Positions 3,620-31,929 of a stretch of DNA of 31,929 nt are shown here, piece by piece. Position numbers and translations under genes: made by a program. Position 1 is the stretch's first letter. Every line of letters starts with the position of its first letter. Source of the DNA: a virus. The DNA lies in IMG/VR virus record IMGVR_UViG_3300031841_000591, positions 1-31,929 of that record, one strand, 5' to 3'. The notes under the pieces are model-generated. The model did not search any database. It was not told where the DNA came from and worked only from the letters and a program-made list of their open reading frames with translations.

Positions 3620-3645
3620 CAAAAACATAAAACATACGTTATATA
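3620..3645 (+). promoter_or_regulatory. Phage-type promoter, copy 2 (tail operon)
   Basis: TACGTTATATA at 3635-3645, 3 nt before ATG 3649. The upstream CAAA lies at 3620-3623, one base closer to the box than in the other five sites. It sits in the 31-nt gap after terL. Confidence 0.7.
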
Positions 3646-3648
3646 AAT

Positions 3649-4293
3649 ATGAAGCTAAAAGTACTAGTACCAACGACATTGGCAGATATTAAGCTAAGAG
3701 AATATCAAAAATTTATGAGAGTATTTGGAGGAGACGAAGAGTACGACGATTACTACTCTGGCTTAAAGTTTCTGGAGATATTTTGCAATGTGCCATATAA
3801 CGAAGCGTTGCAGATAAAAATTAAAGATTTACAACAAGCAGTCGGCAAGATCAATAAAGCTCTAACTGAAAAGCCAAGTTTAATAAATAGGTTTACACTG
3901 GGCGATACAGAGTTTGGGTTTATACCCCAGTTAGACGAGATGACATTCGGAGAGTACGTTGATGTAGATAGCAACATTACGGACTGGGATAATATGCACA
4001 AAGCTATGGCTGTGTTATATAGACCAGTTACCAATAAAAGAAAAAACAAGTACGAGATAGAAAAGTACAGAGGAGATAACTATTACGAAGCTATGTTAGA
4101 TATGCCAATGAGTGTTGTAATGAGTTCACTGCTTTTTTTTTACAATTTAGAGAGCGAATTGCTACAAGTTACGATACGCTCTTTGACCACGGAGAGCAAA
4201 AAGCTGATTTCGACATTGGAGCCAGCTTCGGAGCAAAGTGGGGATGGTACCATAGCATCTATGCACTCGCAAAAGGGAACATCAGAAACTTAG
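3649..4293 (+). CDS. Tail assembly chaperone, short product
   Basis: The 214-residue protein starts at the ATG just after the promoter. Its body contains FGFIPQLDEMTFGEYVD, then DWDNMHKAMAVLYRPV, a pattern I associate with the first tail-chaperone product of Bacteroidetes phages. It probably binds the tape measure during tail assembly (role of lambda gpG). The last 30 or so residues after ESKK look low in conservation and read as the normal, unshifted end. An open -1 frame overlaps the 3' part and runs on to 4397 with convincing protein character, so this gene very probably makes two products. It is unusually far (over 4 kb) from the tape measure. Confidence 0.7.
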   Translation: MKLKVLVPTTLADIKLREYQKFMRVFGGDEEYDDYYSGLKFLEIFCNVPYNEALQIKIKDLQQAVGKINKALTEKPSLINRFTLGDTEFGFIPQLDEMTFGEYVDVDSNITDWDNMHKAMAVLYRPVTNKRKNKYEIEKYRGDNYYEAMLDMPMSVVMSSLLFFYNLESELLQVTIRSLTTESKKLISTLEPASEQSGDGTIASMHSQKGTSET

Positions 4294-10363: not shown

Positions 10364-10391
10364 GCAAAAAAAATGATTTATACGTTATATA
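10364..10391 (+). promoter_or_regulatory. Phage-type promoter, copy 3 (protease/head operon)
   Basis: TACGTTATATA at 10381-10391 with GCAAA at 10364-10368, exactly 17 nt upstream. ATG 10395 follows after 3 nt. It lies in the 31-nt gap after the tape measure stop. Confidence 0.7.
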
Positions 10392-10394
10392 GAT

Positions 10395-11297
10395 ATGCGA
10401 ATAGTTGAATTAATAATTGACGAGGAGGATCTTTACTCTGGTATTGATGCAGTGAGCATTGTAGAGAGACCAGCAATAGAACGCAATTTTGTTGCACTCA
10501 ACGAACAAAAGGAGTACAAGTTTCAAAAGATAGATGACGACAAAAGGTTGCTAATGGGACCACTGTTAATACCTAACAAAACCATATACAGAAAAGATGG
10601 CGATGAGGAGTATTACATTTACTTTAATAGAAACACAGTACGAAAAGCTGGAGAGTTGTATTTAATGAGAGGCAACCAGAACAATGCAACATTTGAGCAT
10701 ATGGTAGAGGTTGAGGGCTTGTCGCTAGTTGAGAGTTGGTTTATAGAGGACAAAGAAAATGACAAGTCAAACAGCTATGGAATGGACTTACCACTAGGCA
10801 CTTGGATGGGTACAATGAAAGTCAACAATGAGGAGATATGGCAAGATTTTGTAAAGACTGGTAAAGTAATGGGCTTTTCTATTGAAGGCTACTTTGCAGA
10901 AAAGATAAACAGACCACAAGAGAACATACAAGAGGAGTTGAGTGCTGCACAGAGATTGCTAAGAATTAAGCAGACTATTATAGAATTGGAAAGTTACACA
11001 GACTACCCACAAGGAGCAACAAGCAATGCAAAGAAAGCTCTGGAATGGGCAGACAAAAATGGATGGGGTGGCTGTGGCACAGCAGTTGGCAAACAGAGAG
11101 CTAATCAGTTAGCTAAAAGAGAAGCTATTACAAGAGATACTATTGCTAGGATGGCATCATTCAAAAGACATCAGAAAAATAAAGATGTACCTTACTCGGA
11201 GGGGTGCGGTGGTTTGATGTGGGATGCTTGGGGTGGCACATCTGGTATTGAATGGGCTATCAATAAACTCAAAGAGATAGATGGCAAAAAGGACTGA
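10395..11297 (+). CDS. XkdF-like prohead protease with C-terminal module
   Basis: The 300-residue protein begins VELIIDEEDLYSGIDAVSIV and ERPAIERNFVAL, then LLMGPLLIPNKTIYRK, FEHMVEVEGLSLVESW and GTWMGTMKVNNEEIW...KTGKVMGFSIEGYF. This is the pattern of XkdF-like phage serine proteases (Peptidase_S78_2), with the His of FEHM and Ser of LVESW as likely catalytic residues. The protease part covers about 1-175. A separate C-terminal module (about 198-298) starts SYTDYPQGATSNAKKALEW and ends near LMWDAWGGTSGIEWA; it recurs in phage head proteins, role unknown. It matures the prohead by cleaving scaffold and capsid. It is separated from the capsid gene by five or six small genes. Confidence 0.75.
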   Translation: MRIVELIIDEEDLYSGIDAVSIVERPAIERNFVALNEQKEYKFQKIDDDKRLLMGPLLIPNKTIYRKDGDEEYYIYFNRNTVRKAGELYLMRGNQNNATFEHMVEVEGLSLVESWFIEDKENDKSNSYGMDLPLGTWMGTMKVNNEEIWQDFVKTGKVMGFSIEGYFAEKINRPQENIQEELSAAQRLLRIKQTIIELESYTDYPQGATSNAKKALEWADKNGWGGCGTAVGKQRANQLAKREAITRDTIARMASFKRHQKNKDVPYSEGCGGLMWDAWGGTSGIEWAINKLKEIDGKKD

Positions 11298-11568: not shown

Positions 11569-11596
11569 GCAAATTTTTTAAGCTCTACGTTATATA
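11569..11596 (+). promoter_or_regulatory. Phage-type promoter, copy 4 (scaffold/capsid operon)
   Basis: TACGTTATATA at 11586-11596 and GCAAA at 11569-11573, exactly 17 nt upstream; ATG 11600 follows after 3 nt. It would drive the three coiled-coil genes, scaffold and major capsid gene up to the terminator at 14547. Confidence 0.7.
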
Positions 11597-15139: not shown

Positions 15140-15167
15140 GGGGTGGCTTCGGCTACCCTTTTTTTTT
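15140..15167 (+). terminator. Rho-independent terminator with UUCG loop
   Basis: The stem pairs 15141-15147 with 15152-15158 (one G-U) around the stable tetraloop TTCG (15148-15151), followed by nine T (15159-15167). It ends the tail-tube transcript; the GCAAA of the next promoter begins at the very next base. Confidence 0.85.
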
Positions 15168-15195
15168 GCAAAAAACTTAAAAGTTACGTTATATA
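15168..15195 (+). promoter_or_regulatory. Phage-type promoter, copy 5 (portal/fibre/lysis operon)
   Basis: GCAAA at 15168-15172 and TACGTTATATA at 15185-15195. Here the ATG (15212) is 16 nt downstream, whereas the others leave 3-5 nt, so the transcript has a slightly longer leader. It would drive portal to holin genes. Confidence 0.7.
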
Positions 15196-15211: not shown

Positions 15212-15628
15212 ATGAAAGTATTAACAACGAGTAGCGAGCCACAAGTATTAAAAATTATACCAAGTGTATATGTAACTACTGGCACATTAAAAATAGTTGA
15301 CGACCAGACATTAGAGGAGCAAGTACTTAATCCAACATACAGCACAGATAATGACTACCAAGTAATAACAGCAGTTTTTAATTTAACAGAGGGGCATTAT
15401 TACGATTTCTACAAAACACTGGACTTTAACATCTGGAACCAGAACAACGAGAATTGGCAATTAAATACAAGGCAGTGGGATGAAGAACAAAAAAGTGAAG
15501 ATTTGAACATTGACAAGATATTTTGTACAGATCAAACTATCGACCAGCAAAACCAAGACTACTACAATATAAACGAAGACGAGTACGTTACAGAAGATAC
15601 TTTTGACAACGACTATATAGTGATATGA
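15212..15628 (+). CDS. Small structural protein, adaptor-like
   Basis: The 138-residue strand-rich protein contains YQVITAVFNLTEGHYYDF in the middle, then DKIFCTDQTIDQQNQDYYNI and an acidic C-terminus ending DYIVI. Proteins of this type, with the KIFCTxQ motif, occur next to portal genes in flavobacterial phages. It probably belongs to neck or head vertex. Stop and portal ATG overlap (ATGA). Confidence 0.5.
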   Translation: MKVLTTSSEPQVLKIIPSVYVTTGTLKIVDDQTLEEQVLNPTYSTDNDYQVITAVFNLTEGHYYDFYKTLDFNIWNQNNENWQLNTRQWDEEQKSEDLNIDKIFCTDQTIDQQNQDYYNINEDEYVTEDTFDNDYIVI

Positions 15629-17604
15629 GCAACAAGAAACAAATAAAAAAACCAAAGGGTGCAGTTCGGTTTGTGGACTTAGCTAGTTATACAACACCAG
15701 AAGTCAAAGAGCAAAAAAACAGAGACTGGGTTGAGTATGGAGCAGATAACAATTATTTTCAGTACTTGATTGATCGGTACAATGGAAGTCCAACTAACAA
15801 CGCTGCAATCAATGGCATATCGCAAATGATATATGGGCGAGGTATTGATGCAACGGACAGCAGTTTAAAGCCAGAGCAATATGCAATGATGCGCAGACTA
15901 TTGAGCGATAGTTGTGTTATGAAGTTGGCAAACGATTTAAAGCTTTTCGGTCAAGCTGCTATTCAAGTGATTTACAATGCAGAGAGATCGGCTATTGTAG
16001 AGGCAGACCATTTTCCAGTTGAAACATTAAGACCAGAAAAGTGTAACGAGGATGGAGAGATAGAGGCGTATTACTATACTGGAGACTGGAGTGAATTAAA
16101 ACCAAGTGAACAGCCAGAACGCATACCAGCTTTTGGACATAGTGAAGAGGGACTAGAGATATTATACATAAAACCTTACAGAGCTGGCTTCCACTATTTT
16201 AGTCCAGTCGACTACCAAGGTGGTTTACAATATGCTGAACTGGAGGAGGAAGTCGGTAACTACCACCTAAACAACATTATGAATGGATTAGCACCTAGTA
16301 TGCTAATCAGCTTTAATAATGGAGTACCAGACGAGGAGATGCAAGAACAGATCGAGCAAAAGATAAAGCAGAAGTTCGGTGGCTCGTCAAATGCTGGGAG
16401 ATTTATACTTGCTTTTAATGATAGCAGAGAGAATGAGGCTAGTATTGAGCCAGTACAATTATCGGATGCTCACAACCAGTATCAGTTTTTGAGCGAGGAG
16501 TGTATGAGCAAAGTGATGGTTAGCCATAGAATTATCAGCCCACTGCTTTTAGGGATCAAAGACAAGAGTGGCTTAGGTAACAACGCAGATGAATTAAAGA
16601 CAGCTAGCATCTTAATGGATAATACGGTCATCCGACCTTTTCAACAGTTGCTAATCAATGCTTTTGAGCAGATTTTAGCGTACAATGAGGTTTATTTGAG
16701 ATTGTATTTTAGAACATTACAACCATTGGAGTTTGTTGATCTGGAAAATGCAGTTACAAAAGAACAAGTTGAGGAGGAAACTGGACAGAAATTAAGTTTA
16801 CAAGCAGATACTCTGGTAATTGATGGCAGATTAGCGTATGCAACTAAAGAAGCAGCAGAAAAAGCTGCGGAGGATATTGGTTGCGAGGGGCATCATATTC
16901 ATAATGTAGATGGCACAGACTGGTTTATGCCTTGTGAGGAGCATAATTTAAAAGCACCTTGCTGGGATGGCTATGAGCAGATCGGCACAAAGATAGTAGA
17001 TGGCAGAGAAGTGCCTAATTGTGTGCCACTGGAAGATGCGCAGAAGCTTAGAGAAGCTGTTTACGAGGCTTTAACTGGCTTGGAGGATGAAGACCTAAGC
17101 GACTATGAGTTAATTGACGAGAGACCAGCTAATGAGTTTGATGATATATTACACAAAGAACTGAATTTAGCAAGTGTAGTGTCTAGCAGTCCACAGAAAA
17201 AAAGTGAACAAGACACTTTATTGTTTAAAGTGAGATACAAATATGCACAAGTCGGTACAACTTCAACAGCTAATAGCAGAGATTTCTGTAAAATGATGAT
17301 GGGTGCTAGCAAGGTATATCGCAAAGAGGACTTAGATAAACAAAGTACTGACAATGAGCAGTTTGCACCTAAAGGATCAAGCAGTTACAATATCTGGTTA
17401 TACAAGGGAGGAGTTAATTGCAGACACTATTGGATGCGACAAGTGTACATTCGCAAGGATAACAAAAAAATAACAGTAACAGAAGCAAAGGAAAAGATCA
17501 GAAAACTAGACCCTAGTTTACGAAAAGAAGCAGAGTTTCCTACTAATGAGCCAGAGGTGGCACAAATAGCTTCTGCAAAAAATAACTATTGGAGAAAAAA
17601 CTAG
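15625..17604 (+). CDS. Portal protein with fused C-terminal modules
   Basis: The 659-residue protein has a portal core at about 1-390: N-terminal RFVDLASYTTPEV, DWVEYGADNNYFQYL, GISQMIYGRGID, the stem/wing region FILAFNDSRENEAS, VSHRIISPLLLGIKDKSGLG and the C-terminal helix FEQILAYNEVY. A second region, about 390-475, has GHHIHNVDGTDWFMPCEEHN and CWDGYEQIGTKIVDGREVPN, a His/Cys-rich module. The last part (about 510-659) contains RYKYAQ, FCKMMMGASKVYRKEDL, SYNIWLYKGGVNCRHYWMR and may be a morphogenesis-type module. Portals alone are usually 400-500 residues, so the extra 250 is a fusion. The portal forms the DNA entry ring at the head vertex. Confidence 0.75.
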   Translation: MSNKKQIKKPKGAVRFVDLASYTTPEVKEQKNRDWVEYGADNNYFQYLIDRYNGSPTNNAAINGISQMIYGRGIDATDSSLKPEQYAMMRRLLSDSCVMKLANDLKLFGQAAIQVIYNAERSAIVEADHFPVETLRPEKCNEDGEIEAYYYTGDWSELKPSEQPERIPAFGHSEEGLEILYIKPYRAGFHYFSPVDYQGGLQYAELEEEVGNYHLNNIMNGLAPSMLISFNNGVPDEEMQEQIEQKIKQKFGGSSNAGRFILAFNDSRENEASIEPVQLSDAHNQYQFLSEECMSKVMVSHRIISPLLLGIKDKSGLGNNADELKTASILMDNTVIRPFQQLLINAFEQILAYNEVYLRLYFRTLQPLEFVDLENAVTKEQVEEETGQKLSLQADTLVIDGRLAYATKEAAEKAAEDIGCEGHHIHNVDGTDWFMPCEEHNLKAPCWDGYEQIGTKIVDGREVPNCVPLEDAQKLREAVYEALTGLEDEDLSDYELIDERPANEFDDILHKELNLASVVSSSPQKKSEQDTLLFKVRYKYAQVGTTSTANSRDFCKMMMGASKVYRKEDLDKQSTDNEQFAPKGSSSYNIWLYKGGVNCRHYWMRQVYIRKDNKKITVTEAKEKIRKLDPSLRKEAEFPTNEPEVAQIASAKNNYWRKN

Positions 17605-24169: not shown

Positions 24170-24202
24170 AAGGGGGTTGAGCAATCAGCCCCTTTACTTT
24201 TT
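24170..24202 (+). terminator. Rho-independent terminator with GCAA loop
   Basis: The stem pairs 24170-24180 with 24185-24195 (with wobble pairs) around a GCAA tetraloop (24181-24184), followed by a T-rich tail to 24202. Its U-tract overlaps the -33 region of the host-type promoter for the next operon. Confidence 0.75.
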
Positions 24203-24231
24203 GGTGCATATGTAATTTAGTTGTATATTTG
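24200..24231 (+). promoter_or_regulatory. Host-type promoter for replication genes
   Basis: A Bacteroidetes sigma-A-like promoter: TTTG at 24200-24203 and the -7 box TATATTTG (TAnnTTTG) at 24224-24231, with 20 nt between. It lies 20 nt before the ATG at 24251, in a gene-free gap. It suggests early transcription by the host polymerase. Confidence 0.65.
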
Positions 24232-25041: not shown

Positions 25042-25067
25042 GGGGGGCAATAAGCCCCCTTTATTTT
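25042..25067 (+). terminator. Terminator or attenuator before helicase
   Basis: GGGGGGC at 25042-25048 pairs with GCCCCCT at 25054-25060 around a 5-nt loop, followed by a T-rich tail to 25067. The helicase ATG is only 6 nt further and no promoter is evident between, so it likely trims rather than ends transcription. Confidence 0.75.
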
Positions 25068-25073
25068 GACCAT

Positions 25074-25982
25074 ATGCTAATTAACTACCAAGAGACCTTA
25101 AAAACCATCAAGCAAATTCGTTCTGGAGATTATAAAGAGGGCGAAAAACTAGATATACCAGAAGTTGACGAGTACATAAGATTTAAACCAAGTAACCTCA
25201 ATGTTATTTTAGGACACGCTAACGTAGGGAAAACATCAATGATATTATTTTTAATGCTATGTTATACGTTAAAACATAAAAAGAGGTGGCTGGTTTATAG
25301 TTCAGAAAATGAGCCACACTCAATACTTAGGAAACTGATCGAGTATTTAATTGAAAAGCCAATAAATAAAGTTTCAGACAAAGAACTTGAATATGCGCAA
25401 AAATTCATATTTGACCATTTTAAAATTATAAGTAACGAGAAAAGTATTAATTACAAAGAGCTATTGGAGCTAGCGACAGCAGTCAAAAAAGCTTGGGACT
25501 ATGATGGCTTTTTTATTGATCCTTATAATAGTATAACAAAGGACCGAGAGATGCTTAAAAGTTTAGGAGGGCACGAGTACGATTATCAATGTACTACTGA
25601 TTTTAGAATTTTCTGCAAACATTGGAAAGTGAGCATTTGGTTAAACACTCACGCAAATACTGAAGCACAAAGGAAAAGACACAGACTAGGACATACATAC
25701 GAGGATATGCCGATACCACCGTTTAGTGCAGATGCAGAGGGAGGCTCGAAATTCGTTAACCGATGCGATGATTTCTTTGTGATCCATAGGTACACGCAAC
25801 ACCCAGCAGATTATATATATACTCATTTTATAGTTAGGAAAGTAAAAGAGATCGAAACTGGAGGGAGACCAACACCCTACGAGGAGCCGATAATGTTCAG
25901 ATCACTTGTCAACAATGTAGGTTATGCTATTAACAATGATAGCATTATCAAAACCTTAAAGCATACAGATTTGCCATTTTAA
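25074..25982 (+). CDS. DnaB-like replicative helicase (ATPase domain)
   Basis: The 302-residue RecA-like ATPase has Walker A GHANVGKTS at 47-55, a catalytic Glu in YSSENE (about 75-80), Walker B GFFIDPYN with D149, and a sensor-like NTHAN at 191-195. Only the motor domain is present; the usual N-terminal DnaB domain is missing. It probably unwinds the fork on the phage origin, with host primase and polymerase since none is encoded here. C-terminus KHTDLPF resembles an SSB tip. It starts directly after a terminator, hinting at an attenuated level. Confidence 0.8.
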   Translation: MLINYQETLKTIKQIRSGDYKEGEKLDIPEVDEYIRFKPSNLNVILGHANVGKTSMILFLMLCYTLKHKKRWLVYSSENEPHSILRKLIEYLIEKPINKVSDKELEYAQKFIFDHFKIISNEKSINYKELLELATAVKKAWDYDGFFIDPYNSITKDREMLKSLGGHEYDYQCTTDFRIFCKHWKVSIWLNTHANTEAQRKRHRLGHTYEDMPIPPFSADAEGGSKFVNRCDDFFVIHRYTQHPADYIYTHFIVRKVKEIETGGRPTPYEEPIMFRSLVNNVGYAINNDSIIKTLKHTDLPF

Positions 25983-26012: not shown

Positions 26013-26594
26013 TTGTCACTCGAATTAATTTTTGATAAACACCAAACTTGGGTTGATATTGTGTGCAGTTTTGGTTGCAATCCAGACACAGCAGAAGACT
26101 TAACGCAAGAGATGTACATTAGAGTAGATCAGCACATTAAAAATGGCAAGGACTTTATGTATGATGATGAAATAAACTATTACTTTATTTATTTGATATT
26201 GCTAAATCTTTTCAGAGACTTAAAGAGAAAAGAAAAGGACATAAAATTAATCAGCATAGAGTATTTACCAGAGTTAGCAGACTTAGATACTATTGAAGTC
26301 AACGATGAACTTGTGTTTGAAAAGTGCCGAGCGATTGAGGAGTGGCTAAATGATAGTCGGTACAATAACCTTTTAAATGAGGGTACAAAAATTGATGAAT
26401 TTACAAGTGATAAAATGAATGCTTTTTACCTTAGAAACATATTTGAACAAGTGTTTGTAGGTGGCAAGAAGCTAATGCAGTTCAGTAGAGATACAAACAT
26501 AAGTTACTGGAGTTTGCGTAATACAGTCAAAGTGATAAAAAACGAAATAAAAAACAGATATGAAACTAGGAGACTTAGTAGCAACGATAACTAA
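26013..26594 (+). CDS. ECF-type sigma factor-like protein
   Basis: A 193-residue protein from TTG 26013 (no in-frame ATG upstream after the helicase stop). Region 2-like: TAEDLTQEMYIRVDQH at 26-41, then NYYFIYLILLNLFRDLKRKE, which matches the ECF sigma pattern (...NLFxDxxRRKxK). Region 4-like: DTNISYWSLRNTVKVIKNEI near 160-180 as helix-turn-helix. It is divergent but the two-part layout is right. It would direct host RNA polymerase to phage promoters. It is encoded in the block transcribed from host-type promoters, while the structural genes use the TACGTTATATA promoters, so it is the prime candidate for reading those. Confidence 0.65.
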   Translation: MSLELIFDKHQTWVDIVCSFGCNPDTAEDLTQEMYIRVDQHIKNGKDFMYDDEINYYFIYLILLNLFRDLKRKEKDIKLISIEYLPELADLDTIEVNDELVFEKCRAIEEWLNDSRYNNLLNEGTKIDEFTSDKMNAFYLRNIFEQVFVGGKKLMQFSRDTNISYWSLRNTVKVIKNEIKNRYETRRLSSNDN

Positions 26595-26706
26595 ATATAC
26601 TGGCATACACTGGATCGTAAAAAAGATCAGCAAATTACTTGGGGTTGATTGTGGGTGCGAGGAGAGGAGAGAGCAGTGGAACTCAATAAACTTTAAAAGA
26701 AAATGA
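26560..26706 (+). CDS. Small protein with CxC motif
   Basis: The 48-residue ORF overlaps the sigma gene 3' end by 35 nt. Contains GDLVATITKYTGIHWIVKK and GVDCGCEERR. The pattern TGI..VKK...DCGC..R is familiar from small hypothetical proteins of marine Bacteroidetes phages. The two cysteines could bind metal. ATGA overlap with the next ORF. Confidence 0.55.
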   Translation: MKLGDLVATITKYTGIHWIVKKISKLLGVDCGCEERREQWNSINFKRK

Positions 26707-27325: not shown

Positions 27326-27359
27326 TTTGTAAAAGTTATCGACTTTTTTTATATATTTG
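27326..27359 (+). promoter_or_regulatory. Host-type promoter, second
   Basis: -7 box TATATTTG at 27352-27359, with TTTG at 27326-27329, 22 nt apart (a little wide). It lies in a 63-nt gap before ATG 27379. It likely drives the microprotein/exonuclease operon. Confidence 0.5.
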
Positions 27360-29622: not shown

Positions 29623-29699
29623 TTGAATTTTTAGAAACTATTTTAGCAATGATCGGTGCGTTTATTATTGGATGTGCTGTAGGAAACTATAACAGATGA
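29619..29699 (+). CDS. Membrane microprotein 2
   Basis: A 26-residue ORF, ILAMIGAFIIGCAVGNYNR at the end, a single hydrophobic span. It fits exactly between the exonuclease and DnaA-like gene with ATGA overlaps at both ends, which supports translation. Confidence 0.45.
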   Translation: MIEFLETILAMIGAFIIGCAVGNYNR

Positions 29700-30115
29700 A
29701 CAAGGAAAAGGAGATACGAGACTTAGTACAGATATACACTGGCATAGATGTTTTTCAAAAAGACAGAAAACAAACAACAGTAGATGCAAGGTGCTTATTT
29801 GATACTATATTGAGAGAGCATAGAAATTATAGTTACCAAGCTATTGCTGATGTTTACAAACTGAATGGCTTTAAAGATGCTAACCATACTTCGGTATTGC
29901 ATAGGGTTAATTTGTTTCCAGAGGTTTTGACTAGAAAAGAGCAGTACAGAGATTTGATGTTAGTGATAATGGAAACATCGCTAAGTAGTCGGCAGATTAG
30001 TAATTTAATGAAAAAAACATTACAGATAAAAACGCAGTCGCAATTAAAGAAAATACACAATTATTTAAATAAGGTTTTAGATGAAGTACAAGAGATGGAA
30101 AAAATGGAAGATTAA
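29696..30115 (+). CDS. DnaA domain IV-like DNA-binding protein
   Basis: The 139-residue protein carries VQIYTGIDVFQKDRKQTTVD at 11-30 and DANHTSVLHR at 61-70. This matches the DNA-binding domain IV of DnaA (basic loop plus the NHTSVLH signature). The AAA+ domain of DnaA is absent. It could bind the phage origin and recruit host machinery, compete with host DnaA at its boxes, or act as a transcription regulator. The C-terminal half is helical (KKTLQIKTQSQLKKIHNYL). It is the last full-size gene before the ParB/glycosyltransferase block. Confidence 0.7.
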   Translation: MNKEKEIRDLVQIYTGIDVFQKDRKQTTVDARCLFDTILREHRNYSYQAIADVYKLNGFKDANHTSVLHRVNLFPEVLTRKEQYRDLMLVIMETSLSSRQISNLMKKTLQIKTQSQLKKIHNYLNKVLDEVQEMEKMED

Positions 30116-30239
30116 GGAGCAAATTGATGCTAAAATAAAATTTGTACCTTTAGGCGAGAATGAGCAGACATATTACTTTTCAAGAACTAATCGCAAGAGT
30201 GCTTACAAGGACTTGAACATAGATATGCACAAAAAGTGA
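30081..30239 (+). CDS. Small basic protein (complete copy)
   Basis: A 52-residue ORF beginning MKYKRWKKWKIKEQ, overlapping the DnaA-like gene 3' end by 35 nt. Also contains QTYYFSRTNRKSAYKDLN. Its last 71 nt are identical to 1-71, so the left window edge cuts through this gene. The downstream promoter CAAA element lies within its final codons. Confidence 0.55.
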   Translation: MKYKRWKKWKIKEQIDAKIKFVPLGENEQTYYFSRTNRKSAYKDLNIDMHKK

Positions 30240-30256
30240 AAAACTTACGTTATATA
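30229..30256 (+). promoter_or_regulatory. Phage-type promoter, copy 6
   Basis: ACAAA at 30229-30233 and TACGTTATATA at 30246-30256, 4 nt before ATG 30261. It is identical to the promoter at 61-88 and drives the right-hand version of the ParB cassette. Confidence 0.7.
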
Positions 30257-30260
30257 AACA

Positions 30261-30860
30261 ATGGAATTAATTAATATCAAAGAGGTTAAAGAAAACCCAG
30301 ACAACCCTAGAAGCATCCAGAAGCATAAATTCAATAAGCTGGTAAACAGCATAAAAGAATTTCCAGAGATGCTAAAACTACGACCGATTGTAGTCGATGA
30401 CAACAATGTGGTGCTAGGTGGCAATATGCGACTAAAAGCTAGTATTGAAGCTGGACTTACAGAGGTGTGGATTGAAAAAGCTAGCGATCTGACACCAGAA
30501 CAGCAAAAGGAGTTTGTAATAAAAGACAATAGCAGTTTTGGAGACTGGGACTGGGATGTACTGGCTAATGAATGGGATACAGAAAAGCTAAACGACTGGG
30601 GGGTTGATCTGCCTATATTGAATGAGAAGTTGCAAGTTGAGAAGTATGCACAGCCAGAGATTGAAATTACAGAGGAGATACTGGAGGAGCATAACTATTT
30701 AGTTTTTACTTTTGATAACCAACTAGACTGGCAAGTAGCTAAGGAGATGTTTGACATAAAAACAGTGGCAAAGCCCGGCTATACAGATACCTATATGCAA
30801 AAGGGTGTGGGCAGAGTTAAAAAAGGCAGAGAACTGATTGATCTATTCAACAAGAAATAA
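30261..30860 (+). CDS. ParB/Srx-domain protein, right version
   Basis: A 199-residue protein. Residues about 8-115 are almost identical to the left protein (NPDNPRSIQKHKF, GGNMRLKASIEAG), while the first few residues and the C-terminal domain differ: here LEEHNYLVFTFDNQLDWQVA and KGVGRVKKG. The shared HNY(V/L)V...FDN...DW and KG(I/V)GRV positions show the C-domains are homologous but diverged, as if matched to a different glycosyltransferase. Probably links DNA binding to modification. Its stop overlaps the next ATG (TAATG). Confidence 0.75.
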   Translation: MELINIKEVKENPDNPRSIQKHKFNKLVNSIKEFPEMLKLRPIVVDDNNVVLGGNMRLKASIEAGLTEVWIEKASDLTPEQQKEFVIKDNSSFGDWDWDVLANEWDTEKLNDWGVDLPILNEKLQVEKYAQPEIEITEEILEEHNYLVFTFDNQLDWQVAKEMFDIKTVAKPGYTDTYMQKGVGRVKKGRELIDLFNKK

Positions 30861-31576
30861 TGGACTACAAGGTATATATACCCAGCAAAGGGAGAGCTGG
30901 CAAAGTAACTACTGACAAATTGTTTTTAGATAGTACTATTGTATGCCCAGAGAGTGAAGTAAAAGAGTACAAAAAGCATCACAAGAACGTTCTGGGGGTT
31001 GATGATAATGTAAAAGGGATCACAGCGACTAGAAACTGGATACTTGAAAACGTAGATGATGAATGGCAAGTACAAGTAGATGATGATGCACTTAGCTTTC
31101 ATATGTTTGAGAGAGGAAAAATGCAAACGTTTATAGACAAAGAGAGAATAAACAAGATAGTACAGAACCAGTTTGAATTATGCGATGGCTGGGGGTTAAA
31201 AGTATGGGGCTTTGCGTTGGCAGCAGATTATAAGTTTTACAGAGAGTATAGTCCATTCAGTACACAAGGAGTGATCGGAGCAAACATTATAGGGATCATA
31301 AAAAACCCATTAAGGTTTGACGAGAGACTAAAAGTAAAAGAAGACTACGATTATGCTATGCAACACATAGCAAAATATGGAGGTGCATTGAGAGCTATGA
31401 AATATGGCATTGATGTTATACACTTAACAAACGAGGGAGGATGTGTAAGCTATCGTACTAAGGAGGTGGAGATGGAAGCGTACTCTACTCTGTTAAAAAA
31501 ATGGGGGCGAAAAATAGTGAAGTTACAGAACAACAAAAACTTTGTTAAAATGAGGTCGCCGAGAAAAGGTATATAA
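30860..31576 (+). CDS. GT-A-like glycosyltransferase, TAGT-like, right version
   Basis: The 238-residue protein begins YKVYIPSKGRAGKVTTDK, then TATRNWILENV, WQVQVDDDAL (DDD metal motif), GWGLKVWGFALA, FDERLKVKEDYDY and GGCVSYRT, KKWGRKIVK near the end. It is closer to the gene at 1390 than to the one at 677. Probable nucleotide-sugar-dependent glycosylation; acceptor unknown. It stands alone, whereas the left block has two such genes. Confidence 0.6.
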   Translation: MDYKVYIPSKGRAGKVTTDKLFLDSTIVCPESEVKEYKKHHKNVLGVDDNVKGITATRNWILENVDDEWQVQVDDDALSFHMFERGKMQTFIDKERINKIVQNQFELCDGWGLKVWGFALAADYKFYREYSPFSTQGVIGANIIGIIKNPLRFDERLKVKEDYDYAMQHIAKYGGALRAMKYGIDVIHLTNEGGCVSYRTKEVEMEAYSTLLKKWGRKIVKLQNNKNFVKMRSPRKGI

Positions 31577-31577
31577 A

Positions 31578-31928
31578 TTGGACAAATTGGACACACAAAA
31601 AAGGGCAGCACTGGAAGCGCTGGAAAAGTCGCTAGGGGTGGTTACGACAGCTTGTAAGAGCATAGGACTAGCAAGGAGTACGTTCTACGAGTGGTTAAAA
31701 GATGACAGCTTTAAACAAGCCGTAAATGAAATACAAGAGGTGGCTATTGATTTTGCTGAAAGTCAATTACACAAACAAATAGCAGATGGCAATACAAGTG
31801 CTACTATTTTCTATTTAAAGACCAAAGGAAAAAAGAGGGGCTTTGTAGAGAGACAAGAAATATCTGCACCAGATGGAAAAGAGTTTACAGTTGAGATAAT
31901 TGACCGAACAGTTGAATCTGAGGACTAA
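31578..31928 (+). CDS. terS: Terminase small subunit, right version
   Basis: A 116-residue protein differing from the left copy only at residues 9, 10, 13 and 50. The HTH is identical. The start codon is TTG (31578), where the left copy has ATG; the reading frame is otherwise intact, so it is probably functional but may be translated less. Confidence 0.8.
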   Translation: MDKLDTQKRAALEALEKSLGVVTTACKSIGLARSTFYEWLKDDSFKQAVNEIQEVAIDFAESQLHKQIADGNTSATIFYLKTKGKKRGFVERQEISAPDGKEFTVEIIDRTVESED

Positions 31929-31929
31929 T
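31900..31929 (+). CDS. terL: Start of terminase large subunit (partial)
   Basis: The window ends ten codons into the reading frame that begins TTG at 31900, in the same relation to terS as at 2448. The sequence up to the edge is identical to the left copy, which shows that terL should follow here too if the genome is circular. Confidence 0.6.
   Translation, partial: MTEQLNLRTN

Follow-up and report, generated by a model that had tools for sequence, protein, structure and literature searches.

A divergent ECF-type sigma factor as putative reader of a uniform late promoter in a family of small phages that probably infect Bacteroidota

The sigma gene and its neighbourhood

The window analysed here is a whole virus record of 31,929 bases, in which nearly all genes lie on the + strand. 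At positions 26,013–26,594 (+ strand) it encodes a divergent ECF-type sigma factor of 193 amino acids, recognised from profile matches and a predicted fold; the TTG at which the gene starts is the sole ATG, GTG or TTG ahead of the conserved part of the open frame. A DnaB/RecA-like ATPase of the replicative helicase type (25,074–25,982, + strand) lies directly 5′ of the sigma gene in the window and in close relatives. This gene pair is directly preceded by a hairpin and a T-rich run (25,042–25,061, + strand), a possible attenuator, and a similar hairpin is found in relatives, L081 and L082 among them. The end of the sigma gene is overlapped by the start of a 48-amino-acid microprotein with a CGCxxR motif (MKLGDLVATITKYTGIHWIVKKISKLLGVDCGCEERREQWNSINFKRK; 26,560–26,706, + strand).

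The sigma gene is part of a presumed early block, which a terminator-like hairpin (24,170–24,195, + strand) sets off from the end of the late block. The initial annotation of this DNA placed the gene behind host-type promoters. Two intergenic, + strand sites in the early block speak for that claim: a promoter-like TTTG-N20-TATATTTG at 24,200–24,231, which heads the block leading to the sigma gene, and a second site at 27,326–27,359. Both are among five matches to TTTG-N15–24-TANNTTTG in the whole window, against 3.2 expected, a total that is not above chance; the claim is therefore weakly supported, and the sites are best described as host-type-like. A scan for sigma-70 promoters (TTGACA/TATAAT) found about as many sites as expected by chance and was discarded. 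Among relatives, TATCTTTG-like boxes recur before early genes. In L073, L038, L049, L074, L080 and L026, AATCACTAAAAAC stands just before early ATG codons, sometimes directly after a host-type TATCTTTG box, and is probably an early mRNA leader. The early block ends with a small protein (29,696–30,115) that has a helix-turn-helix like the C terminus of DnaA (Bac_DnaA_C, E = 5e-4) and possibly binds the replication origin.

Sequence and predicted fold of the sigma factor

Searches with the window protein alone gave weak matches, yet all of them point to sigma factors. Pfam Sigma70_r2 matched at E = 1.8e-4 and 21.7 bits, below its cut-off of 24 bits; NCBIfam TIGR02937 (sigma70-ECF) matched residues 20–182, also below cut-off (E = 2e-5); PHROG 1740 (sigma factor) matched at E = 0.0046, and SigE from the PDB matched by sequence at an E value of about 0.015. 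Both peptides that the initial annotation had quoted, TAEDLTQEMYIRVDQH and NLFRDLKRKE, are present in the protein. At the level of the family, 33 of the 36 aligned members match Sigma70_r2, far above any other Pfam family. The alignment retains a region 2 block (AEDxVQEMYIK ... NYYFxYVxLKNMYxDxxRK) and a strongly conserved C-terminal helix-turn-helix (SELSRxTxITYWSLRNTxKIIKxQI), the recognition helix of which, of the YWSLRNT or YYSLYN type, is kept in most of the family. No region 4 sequence profile matched the window protein; region 4 is assigned from the fold and from the coverage of TIGR02937 to residue 182.

An AlphaFold model built from the family alignment is of moderate confidence (mean pLDDT 74.6, pTM 0.44). 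It places region 2 at about residues 1–78 (26,013–26,246, + strand) and a region 4 helix-turn-helix at about residues 97–188, joined by a low-confidence linker at about residues 76–97 (pLDDT of less than 50 at residues 76–95). The top Foldseek matches in the PDB are sigma factors only, including SigE (E = 2.5e-4) and SigL (6e-4) of Mycobacterium tuberculosis and Escherichia coli sigmaE (1.5e-3), and matches in BFVD include annotated phage ECF sigma factors, for example from Cronobacter phage GAP52. In VIA-align, residues 1–78 superpose on region 2 of RpoE (5uxx) with Z 9.3 and an rmsd of 2.5, and residues 97–188 on region 4 of E. coli sigmaE, solved on −35 DNA (2h27), with Z 7.9 and an rmsd of 3.2 over 71 residues. 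We relied on these domain-level matches and set aside whole-chain superpositions (rmsd of more than 10), in which the large deviation probably reflects uncertainty over how the two domains sit relative to each other.

The region 2 and the region 4-like helix-turn-helix proposed in the initial annotation are thus both borne out. Structure prediction had been named beforehand as a check on that proposal; the model contains both folds and, among PDB entries, most closely resembles ECF sigma factors. The layout of two domains joined by a linker, in 193 residues, fits the size of ECF (group IV) sigma factors, about 160–200 amino acids. The protein is very probably a divergent, two-domain sigma factor of the ECF type.

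A uniform late promoter in the window

The sequence TACGTTATATA, hereafter the late box, occurs in six exact copies in the window, compared with 0.04 expected from shuffles. All six are on the + strand, directly 5′ of packaging or structural genes, and at all six a CAAA stands 13–14 nt 5′ of CGTTATA; as searched, CAAA-N12–15-CGTTATA is found six times against 0.14 expected. The initial annotation had described one uniform promoter on the structural blocks, and these counts agree with it.

The first late promoter (62–88, CAAA-N14-CGTTATA, box at 78–88) precedes a ParB-like/nuclease gene (94–684) in the packaging module. The second (3,620–3,645, CAAA-N13-CGTTATA, box at 3,635–3,645) lies between the large terminase gene (TerL) and the gene at 3,649–4,293. 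Further promoters stand before an XkdF-like head maturation protease gene at 10,395–11,297 (promoter 10,365–10,391, box at 10,381–10,391); before the run of genes from 11,600 that leads up to the likely capsid gene (11,570–11,596, box at 11,586–11,596); and before 15,212 and the portal gene at 15,625–17,604 (15,169–15,195, box at 15,185–15,195). An intrinsic terminator (GGGTGGC-TTCG-GCTACCC followed by T9; 15,141–15,167, + strand) ends immediately 5′ of this fifth promoter. The sixth (30,230–30,256, box at 30,246), before 30,261–30,860, is a copy of the first within an imperfect terminal repeat.

The ends of the window carry two such repeats of about 95% identity (1–441 with 30,169–30,608, and 2,113–2,477 with 31,565–31,929), which flank differing glycosyltransferase-like genes. 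This arrangement suggests that the contig ends join two variants of a single circular genome.

Distribution of the sigma family

Relatives were gathered from IMG/VR contigs through searches with the neighbouring ATPase and the large terminase. With phmmer, a sigma homologue was detected in about 40 loci on these contigs; a profile search found one in 37 of 48 whole records, and a profile scan of viral contigs recovered at least 523 sigma-related stretches. No match was found among isolate phages, either by tblastn with four family members against 50,697 phage records or by megablast of positions 1–24,999 of the window. In a scan of bacterial genomes, the only relative to appear lay on a contig of a Bacteroidia metagenome-assembled genome (L090). 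The sigma family is new, and it is absent from the 50,697 phage records. The host group is probably Bacteroidota, as suggested by the promoter signals, the one Bacteroidia relative and the TerL neighbours in Flavobacterium phages.

The microprotein accompanies the sigma gene closely. A CGCxxR protein of 44–55 amino acids is encoded within 1.5 kb downstream in 104 of the 112 loci with enough sequence (for example, L001, L081, L174 and L225), compared with none of the 35 divergent-sigma loci; it was not found in Flavobacterium phage FPSV-S2, which has a related TerL but no sigma gene, and it has no Pfam match. In one clade (L017, L033, L038, L053, L073 and others), the gene directly after sigma encodes another conserved protein, about 60 amino acids long (ERAxLLLNKY...CNYWNEV...EIKK), and in many loci of this clade the CGC microprotein is displaced further downstream.

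The late box across relatives

The late box emerged independently from a blind screen of 8-mers upstream of genes in 88 contigs, in which CGTTATAT and ACGTTATA were the top words (seen 56 and 66 times, with 1.1 and 1.5 expected). At the orthologous promoter after TerL, CGTTA is present in 87 of 88 phages of the window type and in 2 of 80 contigs of the lineage with a divergent sigma factor (Fisher P about 1e-44, a value that ignores shared descent); 79 of those 80 have TATATTT instead. The box tracks phages that bear this sigma family across diverse contigs, and it stands before no coding sequence of the sigma-less FPSV-S2. In all of these comparisons the contigs are related by descent and some were entered more than once, and the correlation between box and sigma factor is confounded by that shared descent. 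Enrichment of 8-mers per clade was dropped as evidence as it is confounded by orthologous intergenic regions; permutation counts and the orthologous-site comparison were used in its place.

Position within the genomes separates the box from the sigma gene itself. The interval between −8 and +3 kb of the sigma gene is poor in boxes: their density there is about 0.005 per kb (4 box-bearing gene starts in about 770 kb), about 25 times lower than further downstream, in the late modules (about 0.13 per kb; 71 in about 530 kb). A terminator hairpin lies just 5′ of 23 of 95 boxes, compared with 57 of 1,501 other gapped gene starts (P = 2e-11). Measured from the C of the box, the commonest spacing to the ATG is exactly 12 nt, seen for 60 of about 143 boxes (about 42%), and many other boxes stand 16–33 nt from the ATG.

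The CAAA element is present at 32 of 45 loci with a YWSLRNT-type recognition helix and at 5 of 20 with the YYSLYN type (P = 9e-4, ignoring descent and uneven across clades), which is suggestive of covariation between the −35-like element and the type of recognition helix (WR or YY).

In a sister lineage represented by L086 (398–880), L112, L124 and L156, the sigma-like protein can be recognised only weakly, chiefly by its helix-turn-helix (E about 1e-5). The post-TerL promoter of this lineage has the form AAACC...ATATATTT-N6-ATG in 79 of 80 contigs, so that a promoter switch alongside sigma divergence is possible. A search of this lineage for a further late box that clearly recurs left only the post-TerL site (CAAACC...ATATATTT) as clear, and one lone site does not establish a full promoter swap. 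The model of the sigma protein from this lineage is poor (pLDDT 60), and ECF sigma factors head its PDB matches at E values of about 0.08 or worse.

Proposed mechanism and alternatives

We propose that transcription begins with the early and replication genes, the sigma gene among them, and that the host primary holoenzyme probably carries it out. The phage sigma factor would then most likely bind the host RNA polymerase core and direct it to the bipartite late promoter, with region 4 reading CAAA as a −35-like element and region 2 reading CGTTATA as a −10-like element 13 or 14 nt away. As CAAA-N13/14-CGTTATA heads each packaging and structural transcription unit, sigma-loaded core would fire these operons. 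Many of the late mRNAs would be near-leaderless because the box most often lies exactly 12 nt before the ATG: transcription in phages phiEco32 and 7-11 starts 6–9 nt from the promoter element (PMC8948821) and, if this distance also applies when counted from the CGTTA core, transcripts from the 12-nt-spaced boxes should start at or within a few nt of the start codon.

An early-to-late sigma switch with the 26,013–26,594 protein as reader of the late promoters had been suggested in the initial annotation. It gains support from the blind motif screen, the difference at the post-TerL site, the depletion of boxes around the sigma gene and the terminators that abut boxes. Points that fit less well concern the promoter itself. 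The −35-like CAAA differs from the canonical ECF AAC, although the CGT of the −10 element is present, and the assignment of this box to this sigma factor is one that we infer. Spacing to the CGT in typical ECF promoters is longer than the 13–14 nt seen here.

The box also resembles a host signal, which raises the question of whether the host primary sigma factor reads it as a variant TANNTT −7 box, with the 26,013 protein serving as a helix-turn-helix activator. TACGTTAT partly resembles the host −7 consensus TANNTTTG, sharing TANNTT with it (PMC9723704), and the helix-turn-helix is the strongly conserved C-terminal part of the protein. An activator, however, would not need the N-terminal half, a recognisable sigma region 2 by both sequence and fold, and the window's six copies lack the TTTG end of the host signal, the conserved element being CAAA with no TTTG at −33; we regard this explanation as highly unlikely. 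Slightly less credible still is that the protein is a sigma factor but that the box is read by something else, such as another phage regulator or one of the host ECF sigma factors, which in flavobacteria include a class with a CGT −10 element (PMC9723704). Against such a reader, the box follows this sigma family across diverse contigs, and it is missing from the gene starts of FPSV-S2 and, for the most part, from the divergent-sigma lineage.

The sharp 12-nt spacing to the ATG in about 42% of boxes could reflect ribosome binding, and early genes in relatives have a conserved leader of their own, AATCACTAAAAAC; the late box might instead serve translation, or act as an operator, at the 5′ end of late genes. 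We give this very little credence, as the box has two parts, with CAAA fixed on its 5′ side, stands 16–33 nt from the ATG in many other cases, directly follows terminators and is confined to late modules. The smallest chance of all falls to a sigma-like decoy, or appropriator, that ties up the host RNA polymerase and thereby stops host transcription while having no promoters of its own. The divergence of the protein and its poorly modelled linker would suit such a role, but in most of the family region 4 still carries a conserved recognition helix, and there is a uniform promoter that looks like its cognate. The reading that we favour, and consider likely, is that an early-made, divergent ECF-type phage sigma factor directs the host core to CAAA-N13/14-CGTTATA late promoters, and the 26,013–26,594 protein is accordingly named here as the putative, and probable, reader of the late box.

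Comparison with known systems

The mechanism as proposed resembles that of phages 7-11 and phiEco32, in which phage sigma factors direct the host core to uniform late promoters (PMC8948821, PMC4281155, PMC4331800); the kind is thus already known, and the family is new. As in both of these phages, the sigma gene of the window lies outside the late block and the late genes stand behind uniform non-host promoters.

The closer parallel is with 7-11, for which the bipartite late promoters of the sigma factor SaPh711_gp47 have been shown biochemically (PMC8948821, PMC4331800). Both phages encode a divergent sigma factor with region 4 and have bipartite promoters 5′ of late genes; the 7-11 sigma gene likewise has a hairpin ahead of it (PMC8948821), as at 25,042–25,061, and the early genes of 7-11 are read from host promoters, to which the host-type-like sites of the window may correspond. 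Unlike the window phage, with its genome of about 32 kb and its CAAA-N13/14-CGTTATA promoter, 7-11 is a phiEco32-like Salmonella phage with the consensus GTAAtg-(16)-aCTA. Near-leaderless starts are predicted for the window phage, and the link seen between the two sigma factors is the shared sigma fold.

In phiEco32, the sigma factor gp36 serves middle and late transcription (PMC8948821, PMC4281155), and by our own comparison its promoter, tAATGTATAtA (tAATGTAtA), shares 8 of 11 positions with TACGTTATATA, possibly by coincidence. gp36 is reported to be without region 4 homology and its promoters without a −35 element, whereas the window sigma has a region 4 and a −35-like CAAA. What sets the family apart from 7-11 and phiEco32 overall is its promoter consensus, the size of its genomes, the probable host group and the prediction of leaderless starts.

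phiEco32 has a small co-regulator, gp79, and for the sigma-linked CGCxxR microprotein a role as co-regulator of the sigma factor is the obvious hypothesis. A tentative and rather doubtful extension is that a very large family of small uncultured phages shares three things: the two-domain sigma factor, a CAAA-N13/14-CGTTATA promoter of fixed form from which many late mRNAs arise leaderless, and a near-obligatory CGCxxR co-regulator, activator or inhibitor, acting in the manner of gp79 but unrelated to it.

Among bacterial ECF sigma factors, E. coli sigmaE and M. tuberculosis SigE, SigL and SigH share region 2 and region 4 with the window sigma and provide its best structural matches. Many ECF holoenzymes prefer CG just 5′ of the −10 element (PMC6372665), and the late box also has CG at this position. 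The window sigma differs in being a phage gene of very low identity, with no adjacent recognised anti-sigma factor and with CAAA in place of AAC and a shorter spacer. The initial annotation had pointed to the CGTTA in the late box and to the use of CGT by ECF −10 elements; the flavobacterial ECF promoter class SM6, which has a CGT box in its −10 region, agrees with this (PMC9723704), although SM6 belongs to host genes, its reader is not established and the comparison is confined to the CGT box. Leaderless mRNAs make up 5.5% in Flavobacterium psychrophilum (PMC9723704), whereas many late mRNAs of the window phage are predicted to be leaderless or nearly so.

Implications

The sigma factor and its putative promoter offer a sequence-level view of an early/late switch in a large group of uncultured phages that probably infect Bacteroidota, and the short, uniform promoter makes late operons callable in hundreds of contigs. 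The two also form a candidate orthogonal sigma/promoter pair for Bacteroidota, the promoter and translation signals of which are unusual, and the predicted near-leaderless late mRNAs would provide a natural test case for leaderless translation in these bacteria.
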